52,111 bases of DNA from Heterotrichella gracilis (lineage: Eukaryota; Sar; Xanthophyceae; Tribonematales; Xanthonemataceae): positions 1 to 52,111 of the forward strand of contig JAULBX010026108.1 of NCBI GenBank assembly GCA_032358255.1, written 5' to 3'. Positions within the stretch are counted from its first letter, which is position 1. The number at the start of each line of letters is the position of its first letter. The notes under the pieces were generated by a model. It did no database searches. It saw only the letters and a list, made by a program, of their open reading frames with translations, and was not told the origin of the DNA. The translations under genes and the position numbers were made by a program. Positions 8,739-51,100 of this stretch are shown piece by piece.

Positions 8739-8905
8739 TTCACCACTCACCAGTGCCAGCGCCGCCACCTAAAACGTAAGGGTTTAAGGGTTAGAGTATA
8801 GGGTTTCACCACTCACCAGTGCCAGCGCCGTCACCTAAAACGTAAGGGTTTAAGGGTTAGAATCTAGGGTTTCACCACTCACCAGTGCCAGCGCTGCGAC
8901 CTAAC
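8739..8905 (-). repeat. three echoes of the donor end of ARC6-like exon 5
   Basis: Copies near 8739-8769, 8808-8836 and 8873-8901 repeat the last codons of the true exon at 8935-9006 (GCGGCGCTGGCACTG in sense) together with the donor GTGAGTGGTGAAACC. Spacing is about 65-70 bp and each is followed by TTTAGGG-like sequence. They lie downstream of the true exon in transcription order. Confidence 0.8.
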
Positions 8906-8934
8906 AGTATAGGGTTTAGGGTTTCACCACTCAC

Positions 8935-11900
8935 CAGTGCCAGCGCCGCCACCACCGCCACTCCCACCCCCTGCTTCAGTGGCGACCACCTCAGCATGTC
9001 AAACAACTGCACGAAGGTGTACGGGGAAGAGTCAGGCCAATGCATACAATCAGAAATACCAATGAAAGGCGTTCCAAGGCAAATATTGCCCTGTGTTGGG
9101 GTGTAGGGTTTAGGGTTTACAGCAGCCATATGTGCACTCGGCTTTGCAAAGCTTTCTTGGCGTCATGCAGGTTCAGACATCACCTGCCAAGTCTTCAGAC
9201 ATACATAAATTCAAGCGTGCCTTCATGCCAAAAATCAAAACCCTACCTGCAGTGCCACGCACATTCTCCGCAAGGAACGCCACCCTAAACCCTAAATCCT
9301 AAACCCCTAACTAATACCCTACCTCCATTGCTGTGCGCATCCTTCAGGGGACACGCCATTCTTAATCCAAACTCTATACCTAAAACCCCTGACTAGAACC
9401 CTACCTGCAGAGCCGTGCGCATCCTCTAGGAGGCACGCCATCCCAAACCCTAAACCCGAACGTAAACCCTACCTCCAGAGCCGTGCGCATCCTCCAGGAC
9501 TCACGCCACTCGTCAAAGGAGATGCGCTGATTGGCAGTGTCCCTGAAACTGCAGAAATTCTCCTCCAGCCACTTGTCCACCATGGCCACAAGCCCAGGGG
9601 TCAGGTCTTCTGGGTCTGGGGAGTGGGGTGGGGATGGGAGGTTGTGGACATGATCCATCCTGAAGGTTGGTTCTAGGATGTAGAAAAGAATTCTTGTCCT
9701 TTACCCCACCAGCTGCAGCCACTGCTTTGCCAGGGTGTACATCCCAGGGAGCAGGTCACCTGGCTACGAGTAAATTTAATTTACTCTTAAAAGAGGGAAC
9801 TTAAAAGGGGAAAAAATACATATTGCATTTTTCAAATTAAAAGGATCCGGGCGGGTGTCATGTCTACAGCTTGTTATCCCACACGGGCAATTTGTGCTCT
9901 GTACTGGCATTGCGTACACCAATTGCACAATGTACAGTCCCCAATCGCTGCGCTGCCTAACATTGTAGGGTTGGCGCTGCAATGTAGCCACGCTTGAGCC
10001 TGCACGCACCAGCCAGGATGCAGGGTATGCAGAATGGCAGCGGAGCCACCGTTCCCCTCCCCTGCCCACCTCCCGCCCCCTCCTCACCTTGAGGAAGCGC
10101 AGCACCTCGGGGTCCGCCTGTGCCCTAGGGTTTTGCCCCAGCCCCAAAAACCTCCTCCGCCTCCCCGAGCCTCCCCAGCAATAAGCTGCACACCCCTTGC
10201 TCCAAGTTGGTGGCATGCACATGTTCGAATGTGTCGCGGGCGGCTTGAACCCCCCACGGGTTCCTGCAGTAGATTGAGTGCACCAGCTGCGCCTTGGCGA
10301 GGGCAAAGTGTGCATCCGGGGAGGCGTATAATGCGGTGGAGGAGGGGAGGGCGCGGTGCAGGGCCACCTGGGGGGAAGGGGGTATTACCTTAAAGGGTAG
10401 AATTGGTGTGGGGCATTACCTTCAAGATTAGAATTGGCGTGGGTTTGGTGAAAGGGGTGTGATATATGAAACACAGAATCTGACAGAGTGTGCTGCCCGG
10501 ATTCATCCCCGGAGTAGGCCTGTATTGAGCGAGATGGACGCTTTACACGATGGATTCCGTGCAAATACTGTCACAATACCAAATATCCTTCATTTCTGCC
10601 TTTCTGATCAGACGCTGATCAGCTCCAATGATGCATTGAGCTCTCACGAGACACTGATCAGCTCTCATGATCCACCGATCAGACACAGATCAGCTCGCAT
10701 GAGACACTGATCACCTCTACCGATCAGACACAGATCAGCTCGCATGAGACACTGATCACCTCTACCGATCAGACACTGATTAGCTCGCATGAGACAATGA
10801 TCACCTCTACCGATCAGACACTGATCAGCTCGCATGAGACAATGATCACCTCTACCGATCAGACACTGATTAGCTCGCATGAGACAATGATCACCTCTAC
10901 CAATCAGACACTGATCAGCCCGCATAAGACACCCGCTTCCAGGCCTCCGGAGCACACTTTACCTGTTTAGGGTGATGGTCCTAAACCCTAAGTCTGGGGT
11001 TTCATCAAACCCTAAACACTTAACCCTTAAACCATCCCTACCTGCTCTGCGCAGGTCAGGAACTCCAGTGCGCGTGCCAGGGTACTAACGCTAAACCCTA
11101 AACAGACCCTAAACAATCCCTACCTGCTCTGCGCAGGTCAGGAACTGCAGTGCGCGTGCCAGCAGCTCGGCCCGCTCCCCCTCGTCCCTCCCCTCGTCCC
11201 CCAGCAGGCGCTGGAGTGAGGCAAGGCCCTGAGCCCTGGGTTTGGCGTCATCAAGGGGGCGGCTCAATTGGAGAAGCGCAACATCGGGGAGGATTCCCTG
11301 GGAGAGGAGGAGGGAAACAAGCGTAAGGACGTTTTACTGAAAATGTGTACTACACAGGGCCCTGTGGGAAGGCAAACAAGCGTACGGAGATTTGGCTGAA
11401 CTGGGGTAAATGGGGCTATATATTACATAAAGGGGCTTGGAGAAGGCTCAGCAATCGCAGCAAGGGTGGTGTAGGTGGTGGGGTGCTGGCCATCATGTAC
11501 ATCATGCCCATGGTGAAGTCAAGGCAGTGTACTGTAATCAGTGATCAGAGCTCATGTGGGCTTTCTAGCAGCTGCATCGCCAATGCAGCGAGGTGCATGG
11601 GCTGCATGGGCATGTGATGGTGTCGGTTTTACAACAGACTTGGTCCGGCTAGGTGTTCAGCAACCACCCTCAAATCAATTTAAAACGCATGTTTTCTAGG
11701 GCTTTCTAGCACCTGCAAATTGCATTGAAGCCGATATTGTAGCCAATGCAGGGAGATTGGCTCTTTGATATATTTAGAATGATCCAATAAGATTAGATAT
11801 GCATCCCTAACCCTCTAATCCATATAATCCATCACTATCAAATGCCCATGCACATTCTCCCTGATCAGCATCAACAACGGAATTAAAACTTCAACACTGC

Positions 11901-12602: not shown

Positions 12603-12619
12603 TGAATCGTGCAGAAAAG

Positions 12620-13700: not shown

Positions 13701-13745
13701 CAAAGGCCAGCATGCGCACATCAGCGGCAACCTCAACCTTTGCAG

Positions 13746-15340: not shown

Positions 15341-15393
15341 GCTAATGAATAATGATACCAGCATCGATGTCTCCCCAGGAACAGTCACGCTGC

Positions 15394-15635
15394 CATGGCG
15401 CGACTCTGCAGTGTCAGCCAAGGTGCCTGGTGAAGTCTCCCATCCACACGGTTTAGTGAACGAAGTCTGTGGGCGGGCTATTCAATGTCGGATCAAGGAC
15501 CTTAAGGGATTGAGGACCTTAAGCGATTTTGAATAGCCCGCCCACAGACTTCGTTCACTAAACCGTGTGGATGGGAGACTTCACCAGGCACCCTGGGTGA
15601 CACTGTAGCCTACGGGTTTTGAGTCGCGCCATGAG
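15394..15635. repeat. foldback with a 64-bp perfect arm
   Basis: The sequence from 15421 to 15485 (GGTGCCTGGTGAAGTCTCC at its outer end, GCGGGCTATTCAA at its inner end) recurs as an exact inverse complement at 15530-15593. The loop is about 45 bp and itself contains AGGACCTTAAG twice. Outward, the pairing resumes in pieces (CAGTGTCA, then GGCGCGACTC at about 15396 and 15625). It could be a foldback or MITE-like element, or a hairpin RNA precursor. No coding frame explains it. Confidence 0.9.
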
Positions 15636-18871: not shown

Positions 18872-21800
18872 ATGCCGCCGCCCCTTGTCGCCACCTCCGC
18901 CCTCCTGCTATTGTGGTGGGTGGCAGCATGCCATGCCGGGGCACTGTGGCCGCAACCCCAGCACCAGGTGAGAGCCAACACCCCATACAAGGTTTTCAGG
19001 AAAAAATAACTAACCTGGTTGGTTTTCACGGATTGCGACTAAATTATATATTATATTGCAGTTATATGTAATTATCCAGCAGCAACCTGGGGCACCCAAA
19101 GGGCCCCCTTTGCCCCCGACCACACGAGTTTCCCGGCCAAAGACCTAAAACCCTAAAAACCATGGCTGTGACCTAACCCTAGAACCCTTAACCCCATTCT
19201 GTCCTCAGGAGTTGCACGGTCAGGTGTACTAGCTGAGACACGACCGGTTCGAGTCTGAAATGGATGGTCATTCGGAGGTTGTGCACTAAACCCTCAGCTA
19301 AACCCTAGGCTCCACCTGCTTTGGCCACTGGAGTCGTATGGCCAGGTGTACTACCTGCGGGCATGACCGGTTCGAGTCTGAAGTGCCCGGCTACCACAAT
19401 AAAACCCTAAACGGAACCCCTAAACCCTAGGCTTCGTGTGCTTTGGCCGCAGGAGTTCCATGGCCCAGGTGCATTACCTGAAGCATGACCGATTCAAGCT
19501 TGAGGTGCTCGGCTGGCACAACAAAACCCTAAACCCTTGTTGCCACTTCAGGTCCCCTGGATGTACGGCCAAGGCCTAAAACCCTACAACCCCATTCTGT
19601 CCACAGGAGTTCCACGGTCAGGTGTACTACCTGAGGCACGACCGGTCCGAGTCTGAAGTGCCCGGCTACCACAATAAAACCCTGAACGGAACCCCTAAAC
19701 CCTAAGCTTCCTGTGCTCTGGCCGCAGGAGTTCCATGGGCGGGTGTACTACATGAGGCATGACCGATTTGAGTTTGAAGTGCACGGCTACCACAATTAAA
19801 ACCCTAAACGTAAACCCTAAGCTCCTGTGCTTTGCCGTAGGAGTTTCACGGTCAAACCCTAAAACCCCTGTTCCATAGGAGTTCCATGGGCGGGTATACT
19901 ACTTGAGGCATGACCGATTTGAGTTTGAGGTGCGCGGATACCGCAGCTACATACTGGACCAGGCTCTGGACAGGTGTGGGAAAAAACCCTACCCTAAACC
20001 CTAATTCCTAAACCCTAACGTGACAACAGCATGGATACCGCAGCTACATGCTGGACCAGGCTCTGGACAATGGCGCAGATTACACATAAAATGACACCCT
20101 AAACCCTAAACTAGCGACTGCACGGCTACCGCTACAGCGTCCTGCCTCCAGTGCAATGCATGCAAACAAGTCCTGCATATAAAACCATTGCATCTGTTGA
20201 AAATACTGCAAATCCCAGTCTTAACTCTGTCTCCCCAACCCTCCTCTCAATCCTGTTACAAATCCTACACTGAACCCCTGTGTAGGTACCTCCATCCTAT
20301 TCCACACCCCCTCCTAGCAGCCCAGCCCCAGTGGGCTCGGGCATTGCCCTCAACCCTTCGTTTTCCCCCCCTTTCTAACCCTAGCTACTCTCAACCCTGT
20401 TCCAAACCCTAGACATCTTAACCCCCGTGCAGGTACCGCCACATCCTGTTCCACACCCCCTCCTACCAACCCAGCCCCAATGCGCTGGACCCAAGGCTGA
20501 GGCTCCTGGAGGGCCACATTCACAAGGTGCGCATTGACGGCAAAAAAAATGAAATAAATTAAATTCAGGATATATCTTGAATAAAACAATTTATCCCCAG
20601 CCCAGCCCCAATGCGCTGGACCCTAGGCTCAGGCTGCTGGAGGGGCGCATTCACAAGGTGCACAATGGCAACAATTATATTAAATATATATTAAGATTGC
20701 ATTAAATATATATTAAAATATGTTAAAATGTATTAAATTTGACTGCCTGACCCCTGCCTTGGCAGCTGCGTGCGCATGCGGCTTCTTCCAACCAGTCTCT
20801 CGATTTGGACACCGTTGAGAGCCACCGACTGAGAGCCTAACCAAAAACCCTGCGCATAGCTTACAACAAGGAAGCCCTGGCATAATAATGCACACAGCAT
20901 AATTCCTTGCACATTCCGAGTACAGAAGATTTTTTTATTACTATTTATTTTACTGATGTCCTGCCCCTTTCTACAGCTGCATGTGCACGTGGCTTCCTCC
21001 GACCAGTCACTCAACTTGAAGACAAACGAGAGCTACCGACTGGTGGTGGACGCGCCAACCGCCAGCATACAGGCAAGCCTGGGGTTTAGGGTGTAGGGTT
21101 CAGAACAGGGTACCGAACGGTGACGTGGGCGCCAGCACGTAAACGGTCGGGTGCAGGAGGGTGGGGGCCGTGTATACACTTTAAAGTACCATTTCTTACT
21201 TTAAAGTACCAAATTTGTCCAACCTCTTGGTTCCCTTGCACAAGCGCATGCTTTGGTTGGTGTGCTGAGTGGGTGTTATTCGGTGCCATCTTTTCACACA
21301 CATTGTTGTTCTTCTAAAGCCCAATAATTGTTCCCTCCTGGGCAGGCTCGCACTGTTGTGAGTGTGTAGAGGGATACCTTTTCCTCGTTAGTTCTCACAC
21401 TCGGTTTATTATTTCTTACTTCTATATCCGTTTTCCCCTCATTGTAAACCCTCTACTTGTCTTTTCCTGCAGGCCCACACGGTGTTTGGCGCCCTAAGAG
21501 GGCTGGAGACCTTTTCCCAGCTGCTGGACAGAGCTGACCTCCCCTCTGCAAAGGCCAGGACCCCTGGGGCCAGGTATATGATGGGAGGGGCAGGTGAGGC
21601 GCGTGTGTGGGGGGATGCAGATGGGGGCGGGCATTGGGGTGTGGGTTTAGGAGAGTTGGGGCCAATACCGGGGCGGCGCCAATACAGGCGCATGCTTGTC
21701 AAACCCTAGGGTTTCTGATGCAGATCATGAGAGGTTAGGGTGTACCAACCGCACTTGCCACAATCCCGGGAGGAAAGCAGGGTGTGCGGAACTGCAGGAA

Positions 21801-24800
21801 TGGTGTAGGGTTTTAGGGTTTAGAGGATGCCCCTAACGAGCTCGTCCCCTCCGCAGCCCTGAATGGAGCTAACAAATCCATACACGCAGGAAGGTGAGTA
21901 CCTTTTGATTTGAAAAAAAACCTTTAATTTTGAATTTTAAATTTGTGCAGGCGGGGAGGCCCTGAGCTTGGTTCCAGATGACGCCTGGAACGCGCCCGGC
22001 CTAGAAACCCTAGGGTCCGAAAGCCCAGGCGGCCCAGAAACCCTAGACGGCGATCCCAACCACCGGCACCGCCACCGCACCCTCTACATCATCAACGCGA
22101 CAACCATCGAGGACACACCCAGGTTTGCCCATCGGGGTTTGCTGATCGACACTGCACGCCATTTTCTGCCAGTGCATATCATCAAGGTGGGGATCCCTGA
22201 ACCCTAAAACCCTCTGGACCCTGTATGATGAACCCTACCCATTGACCCTGAACCCTTGCAGAACCACATCGATGCCATGGCCAACTTGAACGTGTTCCAA
22301 AATAAAAATATTCTTTTTACAGGATTCAAAACCCTATCTTAAGGGGTAATGATCAAAGGCTGCCACAGGCGTAAATATAAGACATCCTAAATTTCATTTC
22401 TAATATTTGAAAATGCAGGACCACCTTGATGCCATGGCAATGTCCAAAATGAATGTGCTTCACTGGCACATAGTGCATGACAAAACCCTCTCTTAGGGTA
22501 TTTCCAAACCCGCACCTAAGGGTGATTGTAAAACCCTGTCTTAGGGTAATCTCAATCCAACACCCTACCCTACCGTGCAGGATCACCTTGATGCCATGGC
22601 CATGTCCAAAATGAACGTGCTCCACTGGCACATAGTGGATGACAGTTCCTTCCCCTTCATGAGCGATGCCCTCCCCCTGCTGGCCCTCAAGGGGGCATAC
22701 AGCCTGCGCCACATCTACTCGCCAGGGGAGGTCAGGGACGTGGTGGGGTACGCGCGGGCAAGGGGAATACGAGTGCTGCCAGAATTTGACACCCCAGGTA
22801 GGGTTTTTTAAAGAGCTTTTCACAACCTCAACTCTAGACCCTCAGTTTGGCCAAACTCTGTAGGCGCAATCATCAGTTCGCTCCACAACAAACAGTACCG
22901 AGAATGAAGTGCACATAGTCAGGAGGTAGCCCTTCCGCAGGAAATGGTGTGGTGCTGCTACAAGGGAATCAGTACAATGAGCATTAATTGAATTATAGGT
23001 TAAAAGACTGTGTTCTTACGTTCCTTTCCGCAGGCCACACCCTGTCATGAGGTAAGGGCTACCCCTCCGCCCTCACCGACTGCTACGATAGAGAAGGCCA
23101 TAGAGTCTTATAATTATGCATTTATTGGTTTATAAAGACTTATTGTTATTTTCAATTCAATGAATTTGAATTCTTCATGCAGGCCATACCCTGTCCTGGG
23201 GTAAGGGCTACCCCTCCGCACTCACCGACTGCTACGATAGCCATAATAACAGTATTTTTTCTAATTTCTGACCTTTTTCTCGTGTTTGATATATAAATTC
23301 ACTTTTTGTTTTTTGCGTCCAGGCCACACCCTGTCCTGGGGTAAGGGCTACCCCTCCGCCCTCACCGACTGCTACGATAGCGAGGGGCACATTTCCGGCA
23401 AGGGGCCCCTCAACCCCATCAGCAATGCCACATATGCGCTGGTGTGGCAGCTGCTAAGGGAGGTCTCCAAGGCATTCCCCGACAGCTATCTGCATATGGG
23501 GGGCGATGAGGTGCCCTTTGACTGCTGGAAGGTGGGTGCGCTAACCACTGTCTAGGGTAATTATCCCAAGTCCAAGGGCACTTGTTGAGTATAAAAAAGT
23601 GCAATTCAAAGCGCGGTGCCACATATGCACTGGTGTGGCAGCTGTTGAGAGAGGTCTTCTAGGCATTTCTCGACAGTTACCTGCATATGGGGGGGGATGA
23701 GGTGCCCTTTTGACTGCTGGAAGGTACGCGACTACCCCACAGTCTCGAATAGACATTCCAATTTAAAGTGGAATTGTCGAGTGAGAACTATAAGTGCAAA
23801 TTAAAACGCAATGCGGCATATGCGCTGGTCTGGCAGCTGCTAAGGGAGGTTTCCAAGGCATTCCCCGACAGCTATCTGCATATGGGGGGCAATGAGGTGC
23901 CCTTTGACTCCTGGAAGGTGCGTGGTTGGGGCGCGTTTACTACAACATGTTTTTTCCCTATGGCAATAATACTCACAGTCACAGACAAATGACAATTGCA
24001 GTCACAGTTACAGGATAACAGTTACAGTTACAAGAAAGCACACGGTTAGATAAATGCATTAGGGCCCTTTTGTACACCACCATCCACATTATGGGATTTC
24101 TGCTTTTTTTTGGTGCATCCTGTGTCCTTCCCGATGCAGAGCAACCCCGATATCTCTGATTGGATGGCGGCTGCTGGGTTCGACACCTATGCTGAGCTGG
24201 AGGAGCATTTTGAGCAGCGGGTGGTGGCGCTGGCGGGGGCCCTGGGCAAGACGCCGGTGGTGTGGCAGGTGCGTGTTTCTGATGCAAAGGTTGCGGGCAA
24301 ATGATCTGCATGCAATCACGCAAAGTCCCTCCATTACTTCTCCGCTGCCGGGAGACATGGGCAAGACACCGTTGGTGTGGCAGGTGGGTGTTTCAGATGC
24401 AAAGGCCTGTGGGAATTGTTCCGCATGCAATCAAGCAAGTTACCTCCATTTGTGCTGGCTACTTTGAAGCATCCAATCCTAAAATCTGAATCCGAACCCT
24501 AATCACATCTTTGTTGCACAATTTTTATTACAGGAGATTTTTGACAATGGCGTGGATGTGGGCGCGGATGTGGTCATCCACGTGTGGAAGTGGTGGTTCG
24601 AGCGGGGGCTAGAAAAACCTACCACGGACCAGCAAAAGCCTAATGGCTGTCGGCCCAACGCCCAGGGTTGCCGGTCGGGGGCTGCGGCCAATGACCCGAT
24701 GGCATATCTTCAAGAACTGGATAGGGTAACCGCCAAGGTGAGAAAAATCCTAGAATGAGGTGGAGACCATTAAATTACCCTAGGGACCTGCATGGAGTGC

Positions 24801-32985: not shown

Positions 32986-32991
32986 TCTCAC

Positions 32992-33986: not shown

Positions 33987-33994
33987 GTATAGAC
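33987..33994. repeat. left target-site duplication of the P-type element
   Basis: GTATAGAC directly precedes the left terminus. The right flank has ATATAGAC, one mismatch in eight. An 8-bp duplication is the norm for the P superfamily. Confidence 0.7.
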
Positions 33995-33999
33995 AGGGG

Positions 34000-34797
34000 A
34001 ACTAGAATAGGAAGGGGGGCGCAACTCCCGGGTCTCCCCGCACCGAGCCCTGCACTGGATCTTGTTATCTGGTGGGTTGGTGACTTGCGAGCTATCCAAA
34101 GCGGTAACCGCGCTTGTTCCTGCCGTGTACATAGCAGAGGTCCTTCGTATAGTTATTCTTCGACGTTCGTTGTGTCCGTGTGACGTGCGGGCGCGAATCT
34201 GCTTGATACTGGCAGCTGCACCGCTACGGGACACTGGGAATGGTTTCAGTTTTCACCTCTGTGGGGTTATTTTACTCTGTTTTACACTCACTAGAGGGCG
34301 TATACACGTACGAAAGGTAACATATGTGCCAAAGTTGTGTTCTTGAGCACTCTAGCGCCCTAATTGTACTATACAGGCGTGTTGGTGCGATGTGTCAGAC
34401 TGCATGCTTGTGACACCACCAAGTGGTGCTACCTGGGCACTACGCGCAATCAACTGTTCTATCGGTGTTATGCGCATATATTACAGTGCTGACAGCCATA
34501 TGCAGGTGCGTTTGTGAAACCCAATGAGCTCTGGACCAGGCAGTGTCCCACATCGATTGTTGAGGAGGTCAGCAAGGCAGTGGCAGCTAACCTTGTTTAT
34601 CAGAGGTTTTAACAGCAAGTCCTATACTTTTGGCAGCTCCTGAGCCAGCCTGATCACTGCGCAATGAAGGGTAAAGTTGAGGCTCTAGGGCAGGCATTCA
34701 TAGCAGAGTTCAAACAGCATGCCAGTAGCGTTACAAACGCACGGTTGAACCTGGGCTGCCTGGACTACTGGGTGGCTTTGGAAGGGTGACTGTACAG
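34000..34797. other. left subterminal region of the P-type element
   Basis: No exon is firmly supported, although the + strand gene may start here. A possible upstream coding stretch around 34500-34780 has no consistent phase. Confidence 0.3.
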
Positions 34798-35846: not shown

Positions 35847-35929
35847 GTTAGCAAGAAGCATTTTTTTTTGAAATTAAGGGTCATAAGGCAGGGTACTCCG
35901 TTGCGCAGTTCAGGGTCTTAATAGCGTCA

Positions 35930-36650
35930 GGTTGCACCATTCAGCTTCCAGGACCTGCAACTGCCACACCCATAGGTATGAGCAAACCTGCGCTAGCTAA
36001 ATTATTTCTGGAAGCTTAAAGTTTGGAGCGAAATGATTTGAAGGGGATTGGTGAAATGTATCATTGGGAAGTCACCAAGGAAAGATTGTAATGATATTAC
36101 CAGGATTCACTGACGGCAGCGCCACACCCACATGTCGCCTTATTTACAATCGCAATGGCATTGTCGTATACGGTAATTCACAGTGCTAAGGGGACCTCTT
36201 GGTCACGAATTTGCCCTCGGCATCCCTATCAAAGTCGCCTGCTGCAGCAGGTGTTGCCTTGCGCTTCATAGACTTATTCAAAGGACCAAACGCTGACGAC
36301 AACGTTCCTCAATTTCTGCAGGAGAGGCAAACAGTCGGCGTTATTATTTTCACAGATGCACCAGGCTGTGTACTGCCAGCGCCGCCGCGCTATCAGCACA
36401 GAACCAGCTATGTGCAGCATGTGCGCATGCGGCCAGCACAGCACCAGCCAGCTGTGTGCGGCACGTGCGCATGCGGCCAGCACAACGGCCCCAGCACAAT
36501 ACATGCACATTGCGCACATGCACCGCAGACCTGTGGCTATGCCATATTTAACAGGTGCCTTTCCATGCTTAGCCATCATGTGCATCTATATGCGTGCCTC
36601 CGGTAAAATGCAACCAACAAGTACAGAGCTGACCAGATTCTCATGGAAAT
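35930..36650. other. junction between the two convergent element genes
   Basis: Short repeats are present (CAGCACAGAACCAGC-like, and TGCGCATGCGGCCAGCACA twice at about 36422-36482). No further exon of either gene is certain. Confidence 0.35.
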
Positions 36651-36656
36651 GCTTAC

Positions 36657-37827
36657 CTTGACCAAATGCGGTGGATCGGCCATCACAAAGATCACGAGGA
36701 TCTGGTCATGGTCACAGCGCACAAAGACGTATGGGTGATCCTTGAATGGGCTGAAATCATTGGCTGGTGAGCGAGGCTTCCCCAATGTGTTGTACAGCAT
36801 CTGCTTCAGGAACATGCGGTTTTCTGAAGCACCATCAGTGATTAACATGACCACCCGCAGATCAACTGTGAACAATGCTTTCACCACGTCCTTAAAATTT
36901 GAGTAAATGCGAGCTGAGCTGCCGGTTGAACAGGCGACATAGGCCACTGGGTAAGACCAGTTCTGGGTTGTGGATTTGACAAAAAATTGCAGCACTTTGT
37001 TTGCCAGGGGCGCCGTGGAGTTGGCAGCTGCATCATACTGATCTGACAGCCCGACGAGGCCATAGGTGCCCTCATCCCAAACCAGCCCAGCTTGCACATG
37101 CATCTCATCCATCAAGAGCATGCACTCCCTCCCATACCCTGACAGATTGGCTGCCATTTCTGCCGCCTGTAGAATGTTTTCAGCACATATACCTTGCCCA
37201 TGGTGCACGCGATTGGAGTACATCTGAAGGAGACGGCCAGATGGTAGCTTGATGAATCCCGCCTCTCGCAATGCATCGTAGGCTTTCTCGCTCTTCAGGT
37301 ACACTCTCAGGCACCATTGCAGAATTGCAGGATGCCATCGCACGCCCTGATTGGACTTGATGGCACTCATTTGGTTGTCCCAAGATATGGCAGCCATGGC
37401 AATCTGTTGCATACATCAGATTGTCACTGAAAATTGCAATTGCGCTGCTATACAATCCCAACCTTGAGACAGCCGATAACAAATTGATATGAGCAATGCC
37501 AAGGGCTGGTGCAAGGCAGACATAGATGGATGCCAAATTGAGACACCAAGTTCATGTCATGCATCATGTATGCACCCAAGGCACCTGTAGGTTCACACAC
37601 ATGCAGAATTGCTAGCCCTGCGTTGTGGTACAGCATTGGCAAGGTGCGGTGCAATCACTTACAAATTGATCAGGGTCTTTCGTTGAAGGGCGCTTGCCAG
37701 ATTTCACCGCATCCTCTAGCATGGACTTGAAGTAATCATGATCACTCTTTGCCAGCTCAACTGCCTGTGCCTTCAGCTTGTCTACCTTGGCCTTGAGCTC
37801 CTTAATGGTGCGCTGATTGGTAGATTT
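36657..37827 (-). CDS. P-element-type transposase, catalytic part
   Basis: Two exons agree in phase: 37827-37663 and 37403-36657. The first encodes a charged coiled coil (TIKELKAKVDKLKAQAVELA). The second begins IAMAAISWDNQMSAIKSNQG, followed by VRWHPAILQWCLRVYLKS, AYDALREAGFIKLPSGR, LLMDEMHVQAGLVWDEGTYG, LVGLSD, MLITDGASENRMF and ADPPHLVK. Coiled coil, then RWHP, LPS, a DExxI-like Asp, TDGAxxNR and DxPHLxK is the order of the P-element (THAP9-like) transposase RNase-H fold, with candidate acidic residues in DEM and TDG. A GTAAGC donor follows VK. The exons continuing past HLVK on this strand were not found. An N-terminal zinc-binding THAP domain is also not visible. Confidence 0.8.
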
Positions 37828-38164
37828 CTATTGCTGAGCAGCTGCTGTGACATATTCAACTTGTGCTTAGCCACGTCCTCTCCCTGCCTGCAGAAGAGCA
37901 TACAAATTTTTCTTAGTGTGACCCACTGACACCCCATGCGCCAACCCGTAATTGAAGCAGCCTATGCCACAATGTTTTTGATACCCAACACCGCATGGCA
38001 TTGACGAAGCGCCAAGTATGCATCAGGCTGCATGTGCTGTGCATGTGCATGTACTGTGCATGCTGCGTATGCAGTTGTGCATGCTGCTTGTGCATGTGCG
38101 GTCGGTATGCACCATGCTGCATGTGCGCAACTGTTGCAATACAAAGCATAGTGAGCCAGCACAC

Positions 38165-39402
38165 CTGCTCATTTGAGCCTTGGAGCCAGCTTTCCGTTTC
38201 TTCTCCCGTGCTTGCTCTTATCCCAGCCAGCTGCTACCCTCAACCACTGCCTGAGTGCATCGCAGGAAGGGCACCGCGCCGGGTAGGCGGCTGCCGGACG
38301 CTGGGCAGTTGTTGCTGACAGGTTTGCTGGCTGTGGCAGCAGTCGCGTGCATGCTTCACTGCGCACTGTCCATTAACAATGGCGCCTGAGGCAGATGTGG
38401 AGGTGAAAGTCTCCACCAGCCCGATTCGTCTGCACACAACAAACATAGCACTCAGTACAGCTAATATAAGGCCAGGGCAGCGCACAATAAAATGCACTTG
38501 AGAACAACAGGCAGCAAGATACAATTGTTGCACATACTCACATACGCTGTTCACCGGCAACACTTTTTCCAAAGAGTGCTCCACCTCGCTCAGTCATTAA
38601 AGCCTGCCATTTCTCCTTCTCGGGGTTTCCCCCGCACAAGTGCAAAGATGGTGCAGCTGCAAGTAATAATTCCATGTCGGCATCTGAATGGATGGCTGCT
38701 GGGAGAGCAATGTGTGGAGCTGCTCTGGGGAGATGACCTTGTCCAAAACAATCACTTGCCATGCAAAGTCACTTTGCCCATGAATTTGCACCCCCACACT
38801 CCCCTTCGCACTTGGATTTTCTCTCAGCTGTGTATTCTGATTGCACTGTTCCACCATTGCAACCCGTAAGGCTGAACTACCTGCCCAAGCGAGCTCGTCA
38901 ATGCTGTCCACGCCCCAGCAATGCGGCTGCCACTGGCATCAGGCTGCGCGCCAAGTTGAGCCTCTAGCTGTGAGTGGTTGAGATGTTCCAGATCATCACG
39001 CTGCTGACTGCGATCTATTGCATAAGACCCAGGATCAGCAGTAGGAAGTACGCCATAGAAGGTGGAGACTGTGGGGGTGACGCAGAACAGCCCTGGGCCA
39101 CTGTACTGGGTTTTGCATCCCTGCACATCTTCAGTGTACTCCGGGACAGCTGCCAGCTGCTGTTGAAAGGCTTTGACTGCTGCAGCTGGTTCAATAGCTG
39201 AAACCACAAGATTACGGTCTGCGCTGCCGCGAGACAACCCAGCGCGGATGGTATACAGTGGGCCCTGAACCCCCTCGGTGGTGCCAAGCATGACGTCAAC
39301 CCCAAACAGGTTGGAGGGTGCCCTGAAACCCGCAGCTTGGACAGTCTGCCACCCACTTGCTGGGCTTAAGCTTGTAAACAAGCCGCATGCAAGCACGCCC
39401 AA
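38165..39402 (-). CDS. probable N-terminal exons of the P-type transposase
   Basis: Open stretches on the - strand include 39402-38875 (MGVLACGLFTSLSPASGWQT, then DVMLGTTEGVQGPLYT), about 38790-38690 (WQVIVLDKVISPEQLHTLLS), about 38620-38560 (EKEKWQALMTERGGALFGKS) and about 38420-38165 (RCPSCDALRQWLRVA). They lie upstream of the catalytic exons in the right orientation and within the inverted repeats. A CxxC is present but no full zinc-finger pattern is clear. Borders are approximate. Confidence 0.4.
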
Positions 39403-39918
39403 AGCACTGGAACAGCCGGTCTGATAAAATCAGGACAAAGCAGTAGTAACACCACTAGGCACGTCAAATGCTGTGTGCGCCCGCCGAAAAGGCTTAGGGT
39501 GAACCAGTTGCAGCTGAACATACTCGCATGCATGCCCATGCCCACTCAACCCTCAAAAACGTACAACCAGCGGCAAACTTGCGCAAGTCGGGCACCAAAA
39601 GTCCGAAATATACCTGTATGGTACCAAACAACCAGCGAACTGTGTCACACACACTCCAGACGTGTCAGAAGTGCCCCAAACAGCGTACAGGAAGGTTTCA
39701 TTTTCGGTGTGGGGTATAAACCGACGATGATCGTGCGCCCGTCACCAGCAACCCGACGGAACACATCCATATGCTTTGCGTTACTGCTCAAGCCTGTGCT
39801 GTAAACGTCTAAATAGCGAGTGCAATGCGTCGTTTTTTCCTTTACCATAATCCAGGCGAACCGTCCCTCGCCCAGCTGCGCGGGAGTCAGCGGACCCCGT
39901 CCTATTCTAGTCCCCCTG

Positions 39919-39926
39919 ATATAGAC
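39919..39926. repeat. right target-site duplication of the P-type element
   Basis: ATATAGAC directly follows the right terminus (CTAGTCCCCCTG). It pairs with GTATAGAC on the left. Confidence 0.7.
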
Positions 39927-40660
39927 ACAGGTTGACCGACATTGGCCTGCTCCAGCCTCCTAGATATTGCTGCCGGAGCCAGATATGAGTCATTCTTGAG
40001 TAACCTCACTGCCTCAGGGAATGACTCAGCCCTTCAAAGGGCACATCAGCCTTACTATGTCCGAATCAGCCTGCCTTGATACCAATGAAGGCCATGACTG
40101 CAAGGGCAGTCACAGCTTATTTTGTATGCACCCAAAAATATACCGACAAGCTCAGCACCGGTGCTTCCTTGTCTACTCATTTTCTGCTGCTGGCAACGCC
40201 TGGTCTGTTTTGAAAACCTACAGTTTAGTGGATGGCACAGTGCGGCAGCTGCTACACACAAACTCGCTTGTCAATCTCCTTGCCACTTGATGTCACTGTA
40301 TGCTGGGGGATATTGGGACGAATGCCAGTGAATGCCAGGCACTTGATCACTACACTGACTGCTTCTGTGCTACAGTTTGAGCGCTTGCCAGTTGTGTCCG
40401 GCTTTGTAGCTATTCACAACAAGTTCACTATCAGTGCTATGTTAGCCCCTTCGTATGGTGCTGTGCACTGCGGCTGTGCAAGCTGCTGTCCAGTGTATAG
40501 TAGGAGGTGTTTTCGACTGCTTTGCCTAACGTTGACAGTTACCTTTGCTTGACCAGCATAACTCTTTGGACTTGAGGACGGTCAGCTGTGGGATGTGCTG
40601 TGCTGTGCCGTGCTGTGGGTTGTGCTGTGCTGTGAGGATGGTCAGCTGTGGGATGAGCTA
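39927..40660. other. no gene recognised
   Basis: No supported exon. A short tandem built on TGTGCTGTGC and GGTCAGCTGTGGGATG is duplicated at about 40578-40654. Confidence 0.35.
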
Positions 40661-41879: not shown

Positions 41880-43040
41880 CTAAGGCGATAGTCAAGAACG
41901 CAACCAGGTCTTGAGACAGTGCACAGCAGAGGATGAACACCCTGATGTCACTGATATCCAATCATGGTTTGCCAGGTCTATCGAGAGGCGTTGACTACTG
42001 TACGTACTGTGTGAACTGGATGAAGGGTCAAAATTCGGCCCAGAAAAGTTCGAAATCCACGTCAGAAATGGCCAAGAATACTCCAATTTGATATACCACT
42101 GTCCTCCTGGTTCCACCAGTTGTTTCAAAGCTCAGGGCAAACGAAAGCTTGTGCTCTCAGGAGTTTGGTGCAACTTTCCGTTTTGAAAATGGTGCAAGAT
42201 TCCGAATGTTACTGCCGTTTACGTTTCGTTTCACCTTCCAGCACATGCATGCATGCAAAAATGTGCACCTTCCAGCACATGCATGCATGCAAAAATTGGC
42301 CCCGTGAGTAAGCTTTTAGCACGTACTTTGTGGGCAGTATGTGTTGCAGGTCATGTGCTTCCCATTTCCCTTAGAGCCGTTCAGTGTGCAAAGGCAGCGC
42401 ATCGGCATGCATCCCGACATGCTTGTTTGTTGCAGTTGCATAAGGCTGGCTGGGTCACCCACCAAGCCACCAACGCTATTGAACTTCGCAGCTGTCGAAC
42501 CCAAACTCGCCTATAGCCTCATCCCACAACCTATTTTAAAAATCAACAACGTTGCTGAAGGGAACGGGAGGGCACTGCAACTCAAGAACACAATGGGACC
42601 CCATCTCCACGCCAACCTGTGATCTTCTAGGCCTTCAAACAAAAGAAAAGCTCCTTTGACCTTCAGACAGGAGCCATCTGTGTGAGGCCCACAACCTTCG
42701 TATGTAGCCTCAGCCCCCACAAGGGTAACGCTTCGCCCTGGTACCTCCAGCTAGGCACACCCCCAGCTCTCCGGGCCATTGGTCCTCAAGCCTTTGCCTG
42801 CTTAAACTGCACATCGAGGACCCAACACCCACCTGTTGTGATGCATGGATGAGAACACTGCACATCGACGGCCGCAACACCCACCCAATGGCAACACCGA
42901 CGCGCTGCTGCAGCTCGCACTGGATTCTGAGGGTGGCTATCCTGCTGGTAAACCCTGTTAGGGTCGCACCAGTGCATCAGGTGAGCAACACATTGGGAGT
43001 CTTTGAACCATGGTACACCTCCAGAGTGTCGCACCCATGG
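41880..43040. other. no gene recognised
   Basis: A direct duplication of about 35 bp (CCTTCCAGCACATGCATGCA, two copies at 42234-42268 and 42269-42297) is present. A CACATCGA-GGCC-CAACACCCACC block is doubled near 42811 and 42861. Confidence 0.4.
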
Positions 43041-43062
43041 TCCTCAAGGCCTTGTCCCAAGT

Positions 43063-46000
43063 GGTGGGGACAGTCATACTGCTGGCAGTGCCCACCACCT
43101 ATGTGGAGGCTGCAAGTGCGGCGCGCCATCCAGGCCAAGGTCACGGTTCTGCGCAACTCCGATGCAGCTCAAAGCAGGGGGAAGTTCAGCCAAGGTGCGC
43201 AAACATGGTTACAGCCTAAAATACACAGCCTGTGGTGGAGGTGGAGCTAGCTTATTGTTCCAGCACTTGTGCCAGGACCCTAAACCCTAAACCCTAAACA
43301 GCTTTTCCCCCCCACACCCCCCACACCCCCCACCACTTTTCAGACGAGCTGCTGCAATGGCTGGAGCTAGACCCGCGCGTGTGCCAGGACCCTAAACCCT
43401 AAAACAGTTTGGTTTATCCCCACTTTTCAAGACGAGCTGCTGCAGTGGCTGGAAGCTAGCCCCGCGCATGTGCGAGGACCCATAAAATCCTAAATCCTAC
43501 ATCCCAAACCCCTAAACAGCCTGGTTTGCCCCATTTTTGAGATGAGCCGCTGCAATGGCTGGACCTAAACTCGCACGTGTGCCAGGACGCAAAAATACCC
43601 TAACCCTACACCCCAAACCCCTAAAACTAGCCTGGTTAACCCCCCATTTTTCAGACGAGCTGCTGCAATGGCTGGAGCTCGACCCACGCGTGTGCCAGAT
43701 GCCCGAGCTCAGGAGCCACAAGCTGATGCCCCTAGGTGACTACTTTGGACGCTGGACCCTTCTGGAAACGTGGATTTCCAGGACGCTGCCGTGACTGCCT
43801 TGGACCACTTTCGCCTGCGCCAGTTGCTGCCGCTGGTCATGTTTTTGCCTAATTCCTGGCGCATAACAGGTGGGCGTGTGGGAAAGTCAGGTTCTCCTTC
43901 TTTGTTTCTGTTAGATAGGGACATGTGTGCCCAAACGTGTTCGGGATTTTCAGTGGGTTGCCGTGACTGCCTTGGACCACTTTCGCCTGCGCCAGGTGCT
44001 GCCGCTGGTCATGTTTTTTCCTGGCGCACAACAGGTGAGGGGGGATCGAGGTGCTGGGCGCATGGTTTAGTCAGTTTTGTCTACCTTGCTTCTTTTAATC
44101 AGGGACATGTGTGCCCAAGAATGGACATGCTCCTGCCAACCTCTTGGCGCACAACATGTCGATAATTTTGTTAATCCTCAGTGGAGTGGAGGCACCCGCA
44201 GCACCTGTTTGGCAGGTTTCACCTGGGGCTAATATCCGCCCTGCACACGTTGCCTGGGGGCAATTATCACTGTCGTACCCTAAACCCTGAACCTAAAAGA
44301 CCATGTGCACCGCAGGCAAACCACATGATCCCCACTCCCTGGCCCTCGGCATCTTTATAGTACCCCACCTCGAGTAGACCCTGGACCTAGCTGCGGCTGT
44401 GACCACAGCGCAGCGGGTGAGCGAGGATGCCTCCAAGGCAACGAACACAGCCAAGGCGACAGCCGACGCAGTGGGAGCAGCTGCCTCAGGCGCCAAACCT
44501 GCTTTGACCCCGCTTGGTATACTGCTGATTGGCAAGGATCCGAGCGCGGGGTATCTGGCTGGGGTGCTGCCCAATCCCTTTGTGCTGGCTAGGGATATTG
44601 GTGATGGTGGGGGAGATGCATGTTGGATTGGAAGACAAGGCACTGGTGAGCTGCTTCAGGGTTGAGGTTTTAGGGTTTATCCTGCGTTTGTGGTCGAGGA
44701 GCAGGAGAATAGCCCCCTCCTTTGCATTAGCTCCTTGTGCTTCACCATGCAAGGGACAGGCTGCGTTGTAATTTATTTGTTTGTTTATTATTTGTTCGTT
44801 GTTATTTATTTGCTCATAAACCCCCCTTTCATGCAGCCTTAGGCTTTGTGCTGCCCCGCAGCATCGATATGGTGCGCATGCCAACTGGCATGGCGAATGG
44901 CATCGCATCAAGGGAAACCCTAAACCCTAAGGTTGCTGGCTATATGCACAGCGCCACTCCTCCTCTGTTGTAACCTGCTTATTTAACTCCTTACTCTTTC
45001 ATTTTCTGCTGCAAATTCAATTTTCTCCTGCATGCATTGCTTCTCCTCCCCTGCTTTACTCCTTACTGTCTCATTCTCTGCTGCTTGAAACCTTATCTTC
45101 TCCCTTTGTCACTGCATGCGTGCAGGGCCCTGCCCCGCAACCCATCTCGCCATATTTCCCAGACCTGCACAGCGGCAGCCGGGGCCTTCTTGCTGCATCA
45201 GTGGGTTCAGATCCCCCTGGCCTATCCTCTCAACACAGGCATGATTGCCACTGCCTCGCCCAACAACAACGAGAAGGCAACCACACTCTTGGCGTATGCA
45301 AGCGTGCAGTTGCAGGTGGGAAGGTCTGGGGGTTAGGGTTTTGGCAGTGTACAACGTTGAGAAGGCCGCCACCCTCATGGCGCACGCAAGCATACAGCTA
45401 CAGGTGGGAGGGGTCTAGGGTTTGAGATGTAGGGTTTAAGGTTATTAGCATTGTACATTATAGAGAAAGGTACTAGGTGTATGCGTCAGACAAGCATACA
45501 GCTACAGTACATACGGTTTGACTTTGAACAGGATGGAACAAAAAACTACCACGCCATGGAGCGTAGGGCTGACAGGTTGGCGACATGCAGTACAGAAAAG
45601 CCCATGGATATGAAAACATGCATACGGACTAAAATTTATCTTGCCTACAGGTTATAAAAGATCATGGTTGACATACGGGCCATGTGACATAGCAATTCCA
45701 TTCCTGCAGATCGAGGGGCCTCTCTTGGACTGCCACCTGGAGTGGTGCCTGAGCACAAGCGGGTTCACTGGGTGGCTGTCATTTGGCATTTTGGACAGAA
45801 CATTGTCCACAGAAGCCCCCTTTTGTGGTGCGTGCAATGAACCGCATGGGGTTGTCTACCGCATGGGGATCGAGGTGGCGGGAGTGTGGCATGTGTTACA
45901 TTGCTGGGGGCAGAACGGCCCCTCCTGGTAAATCGCAATCGTAATTGGAATTGTACTCATAATATTTTGTGTTATTGTTGAATTTGGGCGCTCTGTGCTT

Positions 46001-47068: not shown

Positions 47069-48109
47069 TTCCCTAGATTTAGGGTTTAGGTTTTGCTAGG
47101 ATGTGCTAGTTGCCTATGGAGCATGTGCCAAACACATAAGTATGCTCGTGTGCAAGGGGGCACTCGAGGACAGGCTGCGCAGACAATTTAGTATTCATGT
47201 ACTTGCAAGGCCCTAGGGTGCAAGAATACACAGAGATGGCACGGCTGGGACCTGTTACACTTCAATTTTTGTTGCAACATTCCTCGGTAAACTTTCCCTT
47301 GACACCTATGCGGCCTTTCTTAGCAGAGTGGCTAAAAACGTTTTGTCGGGTTCTTCTTTGTTGCAGATATTGGGGTATTTCTGCATGTCAGCCTGTAGAT
47401 AGGCCGTAGACCTGCCAAAACAAGGTCGAAACTGCACAAACATCATAACTTATGGGTGTACAATATAATTGGCAGTGGTATCATCCCGACTTGTACACCC
47501 ATATTCAATAGTACCTTACACGCGTTAGGGTAGTACCCTTACACGCCCTAGGGTGTTACACTCAGGGCTGAACCCTATCGATAGCAGCTCCAGTTTAAAT
47601 GGCCAGACTCGTAGCCCGCAAGGAGTACAGGCAAACGAGCCGTTTGTCTCTGCTGACTGCTATAGCACGATGTTCTGGACACGACCTTACAACCGTGGCA
47701 CCTATTTTTCAGATTTGTGGAATCTGATTGGGCATTCACTGATGCCGAGGCATTTGAACGACATCCGTACACGGGGGACAGCGAGTCCATTGCTCCCACT
47801 GTGAGCACGCATACCATAGACCATAGCCTTCTGTCCACTCGGGTTACAACTCTTTGTGCGGAGCCAAACGTCTGTTGTCATGGACGGTGGCCACTTGTGC
47901 AAGTTACACCTGAAGTTACTCACGACCCATATGGTGTTACAAGGCCAGTTACACCACGGCGGGGCGTAACGAGTTGGGTAATAGTCGCAGCGAACGCTGA
48001 ACAGACGATTTACATCTCTCACGCTATGCATGCATATGAGTTCACCGATAAGACACACGTCCAAGTAGCCCAATGTGGCCTGGCAGATAGCTGATCCTGG
48101 CTGGCTGCA
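47069..48109. other. no gene recognised; inverted repeat at 47451-47503
   Basis: TATGGGTGTACA at 47451-47462 is perfectly inverted at 47492-47503. TTACACGC plus TAGGGT units are doubled near 47517-47550. An open frame of about 125 codons on the + strand (47717-48094) has no domain or splice support and is not called. Confidence 0.4.
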
Positions 48110-51100
48110 ATGAAGAAGAAGTCAGCTTTGAAGGGCCCTGTTTGGAAGACAAGGTAGGGGCTGCAGTATAAAAATACACCCTTACTTTTTGCTGAGTGCC
48201 CTGAGTTCACTTGTTATGGTCAATCTTGTTGCAGCCTTGCGAACGATGGCTGGGCAACTGCGCCTGAGAACCCCAAGGAGTCAACCTCTTCTGCAAAAGG
48301 TGTGCTTTTCTAGCTCGGATCTCTAAAGCTGTGTGCTGTTATCACCCACTAAGAGCCCCTGTCCTACCCACTATGTCTTGCTGTTACAGGGGAACCCAGA
48401 AGCCAGGCAAAGGTGGCACGCAACAGACCCAATGGCGTCCAGCCCTTGGCAGAAAGGCCAGTACCACCTGTCGGTAAGTTGGACTGCACCACACCTGGGT
48501 GCTTCATACCTCAAGACCCCGTTCTTGCAACAATCAGCAGGTATTGCACTTCAGTGAGCACGGCTTTGAGCTTTTATGGGTGGCTTGCTGACTGTGTTAT
48601 GCTGGTGACAGATGGGACAGTGGCCCCACAGCGCTCTGTGCCAACAACAAAGCCTGTCAACTCAGGGAAGGCTCCAGCCACACCTGGTAAGCAATCCTCC
48701 TTTTCTATGGCTACCAGTGTTGGTCACTAGGTAGGGCGCCCAACTCGTGTACTCCCCATACATACCTCCATTTCATTCACTAGCATAGAGCATTTATCCA
48801 CCTTGATGGATTCACAGGGACTGACCTCAAACCAGCTACAGCACAGCCAAATGCACCCGCAACTGCCTCTCCCAACCCAGCTGGCCAGCCAGGCCCCAAA
48901 TCGCGGTCAGAAAAGCTCCAGCAGATCCAGCAACGCATGAAAGCCAAGCCCAAACCCGGTCCCGGGGACGACCAACAACCAGCATTGGTCCCAGCTGCTG
49001 GCCATGCAGACCTCACAGAGATTCTGCACGACCTTCGGTCCAAAATCTCCTCTGAAATGGGCCACGCGGCTTCGCTGCAAACCCACCCGGTTCGTGAGGG
49101 CCCAGATGGCATGTCTGGTCTCACCAACGTGCTCCAGGCTTTGGACGACGTTCTGGAGCAGATCAGGCCAGTTGCCGAGCCACTGGCGGCTGTCAGTGGC
49201 TTGGATCATGTGGATGCCAGGGAGAACGCGCATGCAGCTTCCCCGGACAAGATTGCTGAGACCAATAGGCAGGTCAGTGATCCATTGGTAGTTTCACACC
49301 TGTTTTTTGTTTGTTTGAAGGCCATGGCTTGGAGGGGTACTGCTTCAGCTGTTAAAGCTGGCTGCGTCACCCCGCACGCCGCATGTCTCATTGCACTGAC
49401 ATCCTTGTGTCCCATCAGCATGCCCTGGTACCCTCCGAAAAAATTTCAAAGTAAAACAAATCAATTAGTAATAAAAAGCATATTGTCAATTAATGTCCGT
49501 TCCCCACTTCCTGCATTTGCTTTCAGGTCAATGACACAGTGGCAGGACAATTATGGCAATTAATAATGAAGAAGTTGACAATACAGAGTTAACAATACAA
49601 TAAATTATAGCCAATTTCGAATATAATCCCCAATCCTCCACCTGCAGGTCAATGCCACAGTGGACGGGACGGTAAAATATTAACATTTTAAATCAATATC
49701 AACATCAATAAAAAGTCTTATTTTAAATTTAACCCCCTTCTGCCATCTGCATCTGCTTTAGGTCAATGACACAGTGGCGGAGATGGTGCAGTCATGGTCA
49801 AGGCAGACACCCGCTAGCAAGGAGGATACCACCCTCCTGGAGGCCCTGCAAGCCTCCCAAAAGCTTGCAGCAGCACTGGACATCCCAACAGGCGCTGGAA
49901 CGTCAATGGTAATGCGCTGCCATGCGCGGACGCTCCCATGCACCCTTTGCGTTGTTGATTGTGTGTTGTAAACTGCATATCAACGATGAAATTGCAACAA
50001 TAAAAATAAAAAATTGGATACCAATGAAGTCCTTCCTGGGTGTCCTGCAAGCCTTTCTCAAAGCGGTCATTTGTCGCCATGCCAGGCGTGTTTGTAACCA
50101 TGCAACCAAGACATATCTTGCCCATGCAGGAGGAAGCTGGTGCGGACTCAGCCCCGCAAGCCCTGGACCACCACCACGCCCAGCTGCTGCAGCAGGCCAT
50201 AGCCTTCCTCTCGCGCTCAGGCGCCACGGGCGGCTGCCAATGCTGCCCCCCACCCCCTGCCTCCTCCGCCACCACCCCTCGGGACAGCTTAGGCACCAGG
50301 CATACACCACGATTTATGGAATCAGCCATTGGCGAGGGTGCGAGTGGTAGCAACAGGGTGCGGTTTATGGAGACTGGCACTGGCCAGGATGCAGGACCCA
50401 GTGCTAGGAATGCACCGGGGTTCTTGGAGTCACGCATTGGGGATGACGAGGGTGGCGGTGTGGATGGGGATGGGGATGCTTCCCTGTTTGACCAGATCCC
50501 CCGCGCGCCTCCGGAGTTCCAACTTGCTGGGATGGATGTGGCATCTGTGCTGCTAGCCCTGCAGGTAGGCTTTGTAGGGTTAGGGTTTTGAATTGGGTTT
50601 AGGGTTGGTTATCACGTGTGTGCTGGCAGCTTTGCAGGTAGCGTTTGTAGGGTCCAGCTTTGGGGTTTTGGGGTCAGGGTTGGATGTGGTATCTGTGCTG
50701 CTAGCCCTGCAGGTAATGTTTGTAGGGTTTCTGTGCCACGAGAAGAAGAATTCTTTGTTTTGTAGTTAAAATCGCCTCTGATATTGCACAGGGGGAGGAA
50801 GCGGTGGAGCAGCTGAGGGAGAAGAAGCGGGCGCGGGCTCAGGCGCAGGCCAATGCCAGCGTGGCACAATCTGGCCAGGGCAGTGCAGCAGCTTCCGCAC
50901 AGCCTGATTGGATGCGGGATGCAGCAGCAGGCGGTGGAGAAGGTAGCACGTGGGATCCAGAGATGGAGGGGGTGTTTGGTGCCGCTGCGCTGGAGGGTAT
51001 TCTGGATGATATCCCGGTGGGCAGTGCCACGGTATCGCCTCAACAGCAGCGGGCAGGTGAGGGCTTTTTCTGCTGCAGTTATTGTATAGTTTAGTTGGAA

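Follow-up and report, generated by a model that had tools for sequence, protein, structure and literature searches.

Introduction

Interstitial telomeric tracts of mammals are inserted in one step at double-strand breaks, and at a few such loci in the horse a direct target duplication was attributed to staggered breaks (PMC7215372). Small tandem duplications arise in human and mouse cells when breaks that carry complementary 3' overhangs are filled in by CST-guided Pol alpha-primase, and the CST-Pol alpha-primase complex also performs telomere fill-in (PMC8355091). For Daphnia, it was proposed that young introns lengthen through repeated staggered breaks, which leave internal direct repeats (PMC4202315). 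Another study examined 213 introns, found direct repeats of 4-30 bp close to the borders of every one, and read them as traces of break repair at the time of insertion (PMC11782384). The patch-mediated tandem duplications of rice (Vaughn and Bennetzen 2014, via PMC7407515) are local, tandem or partly tandem, lie within insertions of 10-1000 bp and were linked to offset nicks. We compare with them a stretch of 52,111 nucleotides (contig JAULBX010026108.1 of assembly GCA_032358255.1, deposited as Heterotrichella gracilis; hereafter the window), in which exons of a beta-hexosaminidase gene and of other genes are surrounded by partial copies of their own edges ("echoes"), with telomere-like TTTAGGG repeats at many of the joints.

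Like the mammalian insertions, loci described here combine a short telomeric tract with a target duplication. In mammals, however, deletions are commonest and duplications few, whereas here 17 of 65 tracts are flanked by duplications 10-84 bp in length, many of which lie at exon edges (PMC7215372). The echoes resemble the CST-Pol alpha duplications in being local, direct and, as we propose, located at breaks, and telomere repeats at the junction are a feature of the present loci (PMC8355091). The Daphnia repeats comprise 4-17 bases and belong to new introns, whereas here tens to about 200 bp of exon edges are copied, often with telomeric filler (PMC4202315). Similarly, the repeats at the 213 introns are short and lie at opposite borders of one intron, whereas here the copies are long and stand next to the very exon edge that they repeat (PMC11782384). 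The rice duplications are likewise local, and likewise from a green plant if the affinity suggested below holds; the link to exon edges and telomere repeats is a feature of the present loci (PMC7407515). A precedent for intron creation also involves a duplicated block across an intron-exon boundary, with an 83-bp intronic duplication; a new intron arose there, whereas existing introns appear to grow here. In the open-access literature we found no match for target duplications at interstitial telomeric sites in plants, nor for telomeric repeats in introns, which does not imply their absence from print.

Results

Exon echoes in the hexosaminidase gene

When the 13 complete exons of the beta-hexosaminidase gene (Table 1) are joined, they form a single uninterrupted open frame, in keeping with the proposal of the first-pass annotation that only the complete exon stays functional. 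A slightly shorter model of this gene matched the beta-hexosaminidase chains of PDB entry 1o7a, which we take to be the human enzyme, over most of its length (E=7.7e-149). In a protein search (120 of 2486 matches listed), the best E-values belonged to animal proteins with about 40% identity. On the other hand, the highest identities among the named matches listed belonged to green algae, namely Coccomyxa (58%, over 71% of the query), Myrmecia (55%), Botryococcus (54%), Symbiochloris (51%) and Trebouxia (50%). Together with the TTTAGGG repeats, the affinity of this one protein suggests a trebouxiophyte alga as the source of the DNA.

A BLAST comparison of each exon with the gene region detected 19 echoes, all on the same strand and all within the adjacent intron. 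Ten are start copies upstream of their exon, six are end copies downstream and three are interior; none is reversed and none spans a whole exon. All 16 edge copies lie on the expected side (16/16), as stated by the rule proposed earlier that acceptor-side parts recur upstream and donor-side parts downstream, never the other way round. At least one echo accompanies 9 of the 13 exons. The echoes diverge by 3-24% from their exons and run into different DNA; one start copy of exon 7 (22419-22482) breaks off into AAACCCT. Recognisable echoes account for 1156 of the 5388 intron bases (21%), which supports the earlier view that these introns have grown. The duplicated blocks span splice sites: an echo of exon 9, previously placed at 24351 with about 80 bp of intron, does contain the exon end together with following intron, although the intron part measures 67 bp. 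Between echoes and exons we counted 144 differences (76 synonymous, 65 nonsynonymous and 3 nonsense), 78 of them at third positions, besides 8 indel bases. These substitutions agree, though not sharply, with one copy being kept and the other drifting.

The first-pass annotation knew of no described genome with such pervasive geometry. That the geometry is in itself a new phenomenon is not supported: it is expected from any local duplication across a splice site in which selection keeps one exon whole. If a block spanning the acceptor is duplicated, the second copy stays joined to the rest of the exon, so that the partial copy lies upstream; if the block spans the donor, the first copy is the whole one, so that the partial copy lies downstream. 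The annotation had also pointed to duplication as a source of introns, and this did not hold for the one gene analysed. In the 12 hexosaminidase introns, a search for in-register copies only detected no donor/acceptor repeat beyond the control (the best score, 6, equals the control's 95th percentile). Introns grow here, and intron birth is not seen in the hexosaminidase gene; the process may create introns elsewhere.

Echoes beyond the window

The assembly behind the window comprises 68.5 Mb in 903 contigs. Besides the window, the sample draws on 19 other contigs, from which we fetched 20 stretches of 10 kb each. One stretch of atypical GC content (L006; scaffold C1, 894 kb, positions 30001-40000) was excluded from all later sample counts. 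Its GC is 37%, against 50-60% in the other fetched stretches, and its only family match, to a type 9 secretion sorting domain, falls below the curated cut-off; scaffold C1 may be a bacterial contaminant or associate.

Among local repeats at a spacing of 60-600 bp in the window and the 20 stretches, 88 are direct and none is inverted, which agrees with the repeated local tandem duplication proposed earlier. Inverted pairs occur at distances below 60 bp only in hairpin-like form (13 pairs). The lack of inverted pairs at this spacing rules out that echoes are inverted or templated copies. Of the 20 fetched stretches, 16 contain one or more local direct pairs, and the 242-kb sample contains 87 local pairs, against 0 after one dinucleotide shuffle. 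The exon-edge pattern is thus confirmed as real and present in most of the genome sampled; the genome-wide spread claimed earlier holds to the extent of this sample.

A codon-usage model, trained first on the hexosaminidase exons and then on the sample, detected a coding signal in 47 of the 87 pairs. Leaving out the 40 pairs that have no coding signal and one that lacks a scorable flank, 46 pairs could be scored on all four flanks. This test is independent of strand, and tandem duplication predicts the stronger coding signal on the outer flank. It was stronger there in 40 pairs and on the inner flank in six. By reading, the six comprise two echo-echo pairs, two coding tandem repeats and two weakly scored pairs. 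The named echo-bearing genes of the sample include a trehalose-phosphatase gene (L025) and a bromodomain gene (L003); in the latter, one exon is echoed twice, with the telomeric tract lying between the two echoes. Arrays of constant period with no evident telomeric filler are found in L008 (93 bp), in L012 (73 bp) and in the window (45 bp, 10674-10931). In L017, a 136-bp unit across a donor is present in three copies that are 89-95% identical.

Telomere repeats at the joints

The telomere repeat at the joint is the unexpected part of the pattern, and it was overlooked in the first-pass annotation. A telomeric 21-mer has 834 matches (428 forward and 406 reverse, overlaps included), against 0 for a reversed control, and telomere-like DNA makes up 1.25% of the sample, compared with 0.06% after shuffling. 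After exclusion of 17 overlapping pairs from the 87, and of 25 untyped pairs from the remaining 70, 45 typed pairs were available. In the 30 bp next to the broken end of the echo, telomere-like DNA has a coverage of 19-29% in these pairs, as against 5.5-8.6% on the outer side. Of the 68 gapped pairs (19 of the 87 pairs have no gap and were left out), 28 have a telomere-like tract that separates their copies, against 138 of 1360 (10%) noncoding-like stretches of the same locus and length; the p value is about 1e-10, with the reservation that pairs within one array are not independent. In echo pairs lacking telomeric filler, the filler is often AT-rich by eye (23100-23180, 49545-49640, and L024 3136-3330); organelle DNA would be one conceivable source.

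We then started from the telomeric tracts themselves, using in list order 65 of the first 66 distinct tracts (one beside L005 was skipped), each locus being centred on a perfect three-unit tract. With telomere-like DNA masked, 24 of the 65 loci are spanned by a direct repeat, 23 have a copy within 15 bp of the tract on at least one side and 11 have one on both sides. The corresponding control counts are 32, 14 and 0 of 867 noncoding-like positions, and 40, 17 and 1 of all 1200 positions. We also matched only the end of the left flank against the beginning of the right one, no more than 8 bp away from the tract; a duplication was found at 17 of the 65 tracts and at 0 of 195 mispaired flanks. 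In the same comparison other microsatellites gave 5 of 164, which consist of three low-complexity and two telomere-variant tracts. The 17 duplications, in which a block X stands on both sides of a telomeric tract (X-telomere-X), are 10-84 bp long (median 34) and 80-100% identical. Eight of them reach a codon-model score of 10 together with their outer flank, and about 12 of the 17 hold an exon edge or a coding block by eye. In a one-strand Pfam search of three X-telomere-X loci, L003 yielded the bromodomain, whereas L044 and L046, both coding-like by eye, yielded no domain.

At least 30 non-telomeric bases are common to two loci in only 9 of 2080 locus pairs; judged by this, the 65 telomeric loci are not copies of one dispersed element. 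A transposon or introner would bring a shared insert and a target duplication of fixed length, whereas sequence is shared in these 9 pairs only and the duplication lengths range from 10 to 84 bp. No target consensus is evident by eye at the ends of the 17 duplications.

In the window and stretches L007-L025, the commonest 8-mer is the palindrome TGCATGCA, with 200 occurrences against about 7 expected, ahead of the telomeric 8-mers.

Placement and orientation at splice sites

For the placement of telomere-like DNA we used splice sites predicted by the codon model. Telomere-like DNA is concentrated 10-40 bp inside putative donors, where it covers 13% of the bases at +10 to +20, against about 2.7% deeper in the intron. 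The concentration 20-30 bp before putative acceptors is weaker (5.7%). Of 141 donors, 23 are followed within 60 bp by repeats with the G-rich strand in sense and 9 by repeats with the C-rich strand in sense, while before acceptors the counts are 3 and 15 of 110 (Fisher p=0.0003). At donors and acceptors alike, the repeats tend to be directed away from the exon. Near donors, rotations of TTTAGGG occur at 21.5 per kb, compared with 0.56-0.93 per kb for control 7-mers of like composition; these controls rule out selection for G-runs as such as the cause of the excess at donors.

This orientation fits the addition of a telomere to the exon-bearing end of a break. Selection on splicing is an equally possible cause, because repeats so oriented also provide G-runs downstream of donors and, upstream of acceptors, pyrimidine-rich, branch-like DNA.

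Other features of the window

Partial copies were recovered by self-comparison and by direct reading at all seven stretches for which the first-pass annotation had cited them (Table 1). The gene at or near 8.7-9.5 kb matches the ARC6 (plastid division) domain with 31.5 bits, against a cut-off of 24. At 9.2-9.5 kb the exon end is followed by three alternations of telomere-like DNA and copy, and each copy is in turn followed by GTAGGGT and TTTAGGG-like DNA. The exons at 8.7, 43.3, 49.5 and 50.5 kb are putative, being called from reading frame and splice-like motifs rather than from homology.

Table 1. Echo-bearing exons and their partial copies in the window.
Feature	Position	Strand	Remarks	Basis
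Beta-hexosaminidase (GH20) gene	18872-26116	+	13 exons, 618 codons and stop, 12 introns, median intron 402 bp	
Exon 2, complete	19879-19973	+		Exon-against-gene BLAST
Exon 2, four start copies	19338-19794	+	At 19338, 19453, 19607 and 19728; CCCTAAA telomere-like stretches between	Self-comparison, BLAST, reading
Exon 2, further degraded start copy	from near 19210	+	Array of exon 2 start copies as a whole: 19209-19870	Self-comparison, reading
Exon 2, end copy	20033-20069	+	97% identical; telomeric tract 19991-20004 separates exon and copy	BLAST
Exon 3, copy of 5' part	20293-20337	+	Upstream; exon bases 10-54, scored interior	BLAST
Exon 3, end copy	20597-20657	+		BLAST
Exon 4, start copy	20766-20831	+		BLAST
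Exon 7, two upstream copies	22274-22482	+	22274-22299 (exon bases 19-44, scored interior) and 22419-22482 (start copy)	BLAST
Exon 8, two start copies	23034-23241	+		BLAST
Exon 8, complete	23323-23531	+		BLAST
Exon 8, two end copies	23617-23917	+		BLAST
Exon 9, end copy	24343-24450	+	With 67 bp of following intron; 81-83% over 108 bp	Self-comparison, BLAST
Exon 10, end copy	24821-24896	+	Immediately after telomeric tract 24810-24823	BLAST
Exon 11, two copies	25004-25040; 25321-25352	+	Upstream start copy; downstream interior piece	BLAST
Exon 12, start copy	25405-25477	+		BLAST
ARC6-like gene, exon end and three downstream end copies	9239-9528	-	Exon end near 9473-9515; copies 9239-9460	Self-comparison, domain scan, reading
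Putative exon end and three downstream copies	8736-8953	-	Copies 8736-8933; period 66 bp, CCCTAAA-like filler between	Self-comparison, reading
Putative exon start, four-copy array	43313-43698	+	Telomeric tracts 43277-43297 and 43389-43402	Self-comparison
Two short start copies before a putative exon	49524-49778	+	Copies 49524-49543 and 49645-49663; exon from near 49762	Reading
Putative exon end and two downstream copies	50529-50729	+	Copies 50602-50729; TAGGGT-like DNA after each donor	Self-comparison

Larger repeats are also present in the window. A 2-kb block (2094-4039) is repeated about 3 kb downstream (5069-7309), with 72% identity over 784 bp and then further pieces, and related pieces lie at 13.8-14.8 kb; we read the 2094-4039/5069-7309 repeat as an older, gene-sized duplication. 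A gene-like stretch is present in two diverged copies of opposite orientation, at 32946-33816 (minus strand) and 42974-44078 (plus strand); the copies lie 10 kb apart, both bear local echoes, and a Pfam search of the plus-strand copy gave no match. Large hairpins at 7157-7367 and 15406-15608, with arms 74% and 94% complementary, are both of the inverted pairs reported in the window. By eye, the long open frames 369-1625 (plus strand) and 36579-37415 (minus strand) resemble what we presume to be a recombinase-type and a transposase-type protein, respectively.

Discussion

We consider it probable that the echoes are long target-site (tandem) duplications left by the repair of staggered double-strand breaks, often with capture of telomere repeats. 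The insert is variable in length, the target duplication is variable in length and no target consensus is evident, and this combination points to staggered-break repair with fill-in and telomere addition or capture. Two nearby nicks on opposite strands would leave complementary overhangs; if both overhangs were filled in and then joined, the stretch between the nicks would be present twice. This stretch would measure 10-84 bp in the clearest cases and up to about 200 bp in array units. In many events, the break would gain telomere repeats, by addition or capture, before its ends are joined, and the product would be X-(TTTAGGG)n-X. If X lay across a splice site and one exon was left whole, the whole exon would stay coding and the other copy would decay in the intron, and repeated events would build arrays and lengthen introns. 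Pairs that contain no telomeric DNA may derive from the same repair without capture, or from slippage. The local direct copies, the X-telomere-X structure, the geometry and the decay of the copies are observed, and from them we infer the staggered breaks, the fill-in, the action of telomerase or the capture of telomere fragments, and the order of events. A telomeric tract may come from telomerase, but captured telomere fragments or copies of telomeric RNA would look alike. Each proposed step has a precedent in the reports on CST-Pol alpha duplications, mammalian telomeric insertion and Daphnia introns. Target duplications made by repair are known; those proposed here would often involve telomere capture and be large and dense enough to shape introns.

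Several observations weigh against this interpretation. No flanking duplication is seen at 48 of the 65 telomeric tracts. Among the 68 gapped pairs, 40 lack a telomere-like tract, and in 19 of the 87 pairs the copies abut or overlap; both of these groups of pairs could be due to plain slippage or to other filler. Telomere-like DNA is also raised on the outer side of the echo at 30-60 bp (13-14%). No duplication longer than 10 bp is 100% identical, so that no event is proven to be recent. The 9 sharing pairs, which are weak ones, involve 14 loci, five of which belong to the 17 with a duplication. Finally, 53% of the echo-exon differences are synonymous, against 42% predicted for a neutral echo and a constrained exon and 27% if both were neutral; gene conversion or shared counting could explain the excess.

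The abutting and overlapping pairs are what would be seen if the echoes were plain tandem duplications made by replication slippage or unequal exchange, with the telomere-like repeats as bystanders in introns or as a slippage-prone site, and the arrays of constant period without evident telomeric filler (45 bp at 10674-10931, 93 bp in L008 and 73 bp in L012), as well as the 136-bp donor-spanning unit of L017 in three copies 89-95% identical, would fit this explanation too. We nevertheless regard it as rather unlikely, given X-telomere-X at 17 of 65 tracts but at none of 195 mispaired flanks and at 5 of 164 other microsatellites, and given a telomere-like coverage of 19-29% in the first 30 bp at the echo junction against 5.5-8.6% on the outer side. 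Target-primed insertion of a long interspersed element (LINE) or a Penelope-like retroelement with a telomeric-repeat tail, mostly as tail-only inserts, would make the echoes variable target-site duplications. Target duplications of variable length and tail-only inserts are typical of such elements, and telomere-linked LINEs (Zepp) occur in trebouxiophytes; set against this, little non-telomeric DNA is shared across the 65 loci (9 of 2080 pairs) and the 17 duplication ends reveal no evident target consensus by eye, and although no search of the genome was aimed at such an element, we hold an origin by retroelements to be decidedly improbable.

The excess of third-position differences (78 of 144), the AG or GT often kept in the echoes, and the placement and orientation of telomere-like DNA at predicted splice sites could indicate that selection retains the echoes as alternative exons, decoys or splicing enhancers. 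However, the copies are truncated and contain indels (8 bases), and 65 of the 144 changes are nonsynonymous and 3 are nonsense, which makes such retention very unlikely in our judgement. An assembly artefact from heterozygosity or repeats could be suspected because the assembly is fragmented (903 contigs) and may include a bacterial contig (L006, on weak evidence), yet the hexosaminidase echoes differ by 3-24% from their exons and run into different DNA, and local pairs occur in 16 of the 20 fetched stretches; we give this explanation almost no credence. A bolder form of the break-repair explanation, which we put forward only tentatively and think somewhat doubtful, is that telomerase or the telomere fill-in machinery is a main engine of intron growth in this lineage. 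Breaks close to exon edges would be extended with TTTAGGG, filled in and joined; exon edges would thereby be duplicated, and introns would acquire telomere repeats directly inside both splice sites, directed away from the exon. The repeats would then be used as splicing elements (UAGGG after donors, and CCCUAA as pyrimidine-rich or branch-like DNA before acceptors).

The origin of intron sequence is an old question for which few mutational mechanisms are well marked, and here many footprints of apparently one process are preserved at many stages of decay. A block that often contains a splice site, present twice with telomere repeats in the middle, serves as a diagnostic tag and makes intron growth by break repair countable. 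Splice signals persist in the echoes, which could be mistaken for exons, and this is a hazard for gene prediction. With the X-telomere-X footprints it would also be possible to test if the enzymes of telomere maintenance work on internal breaks.

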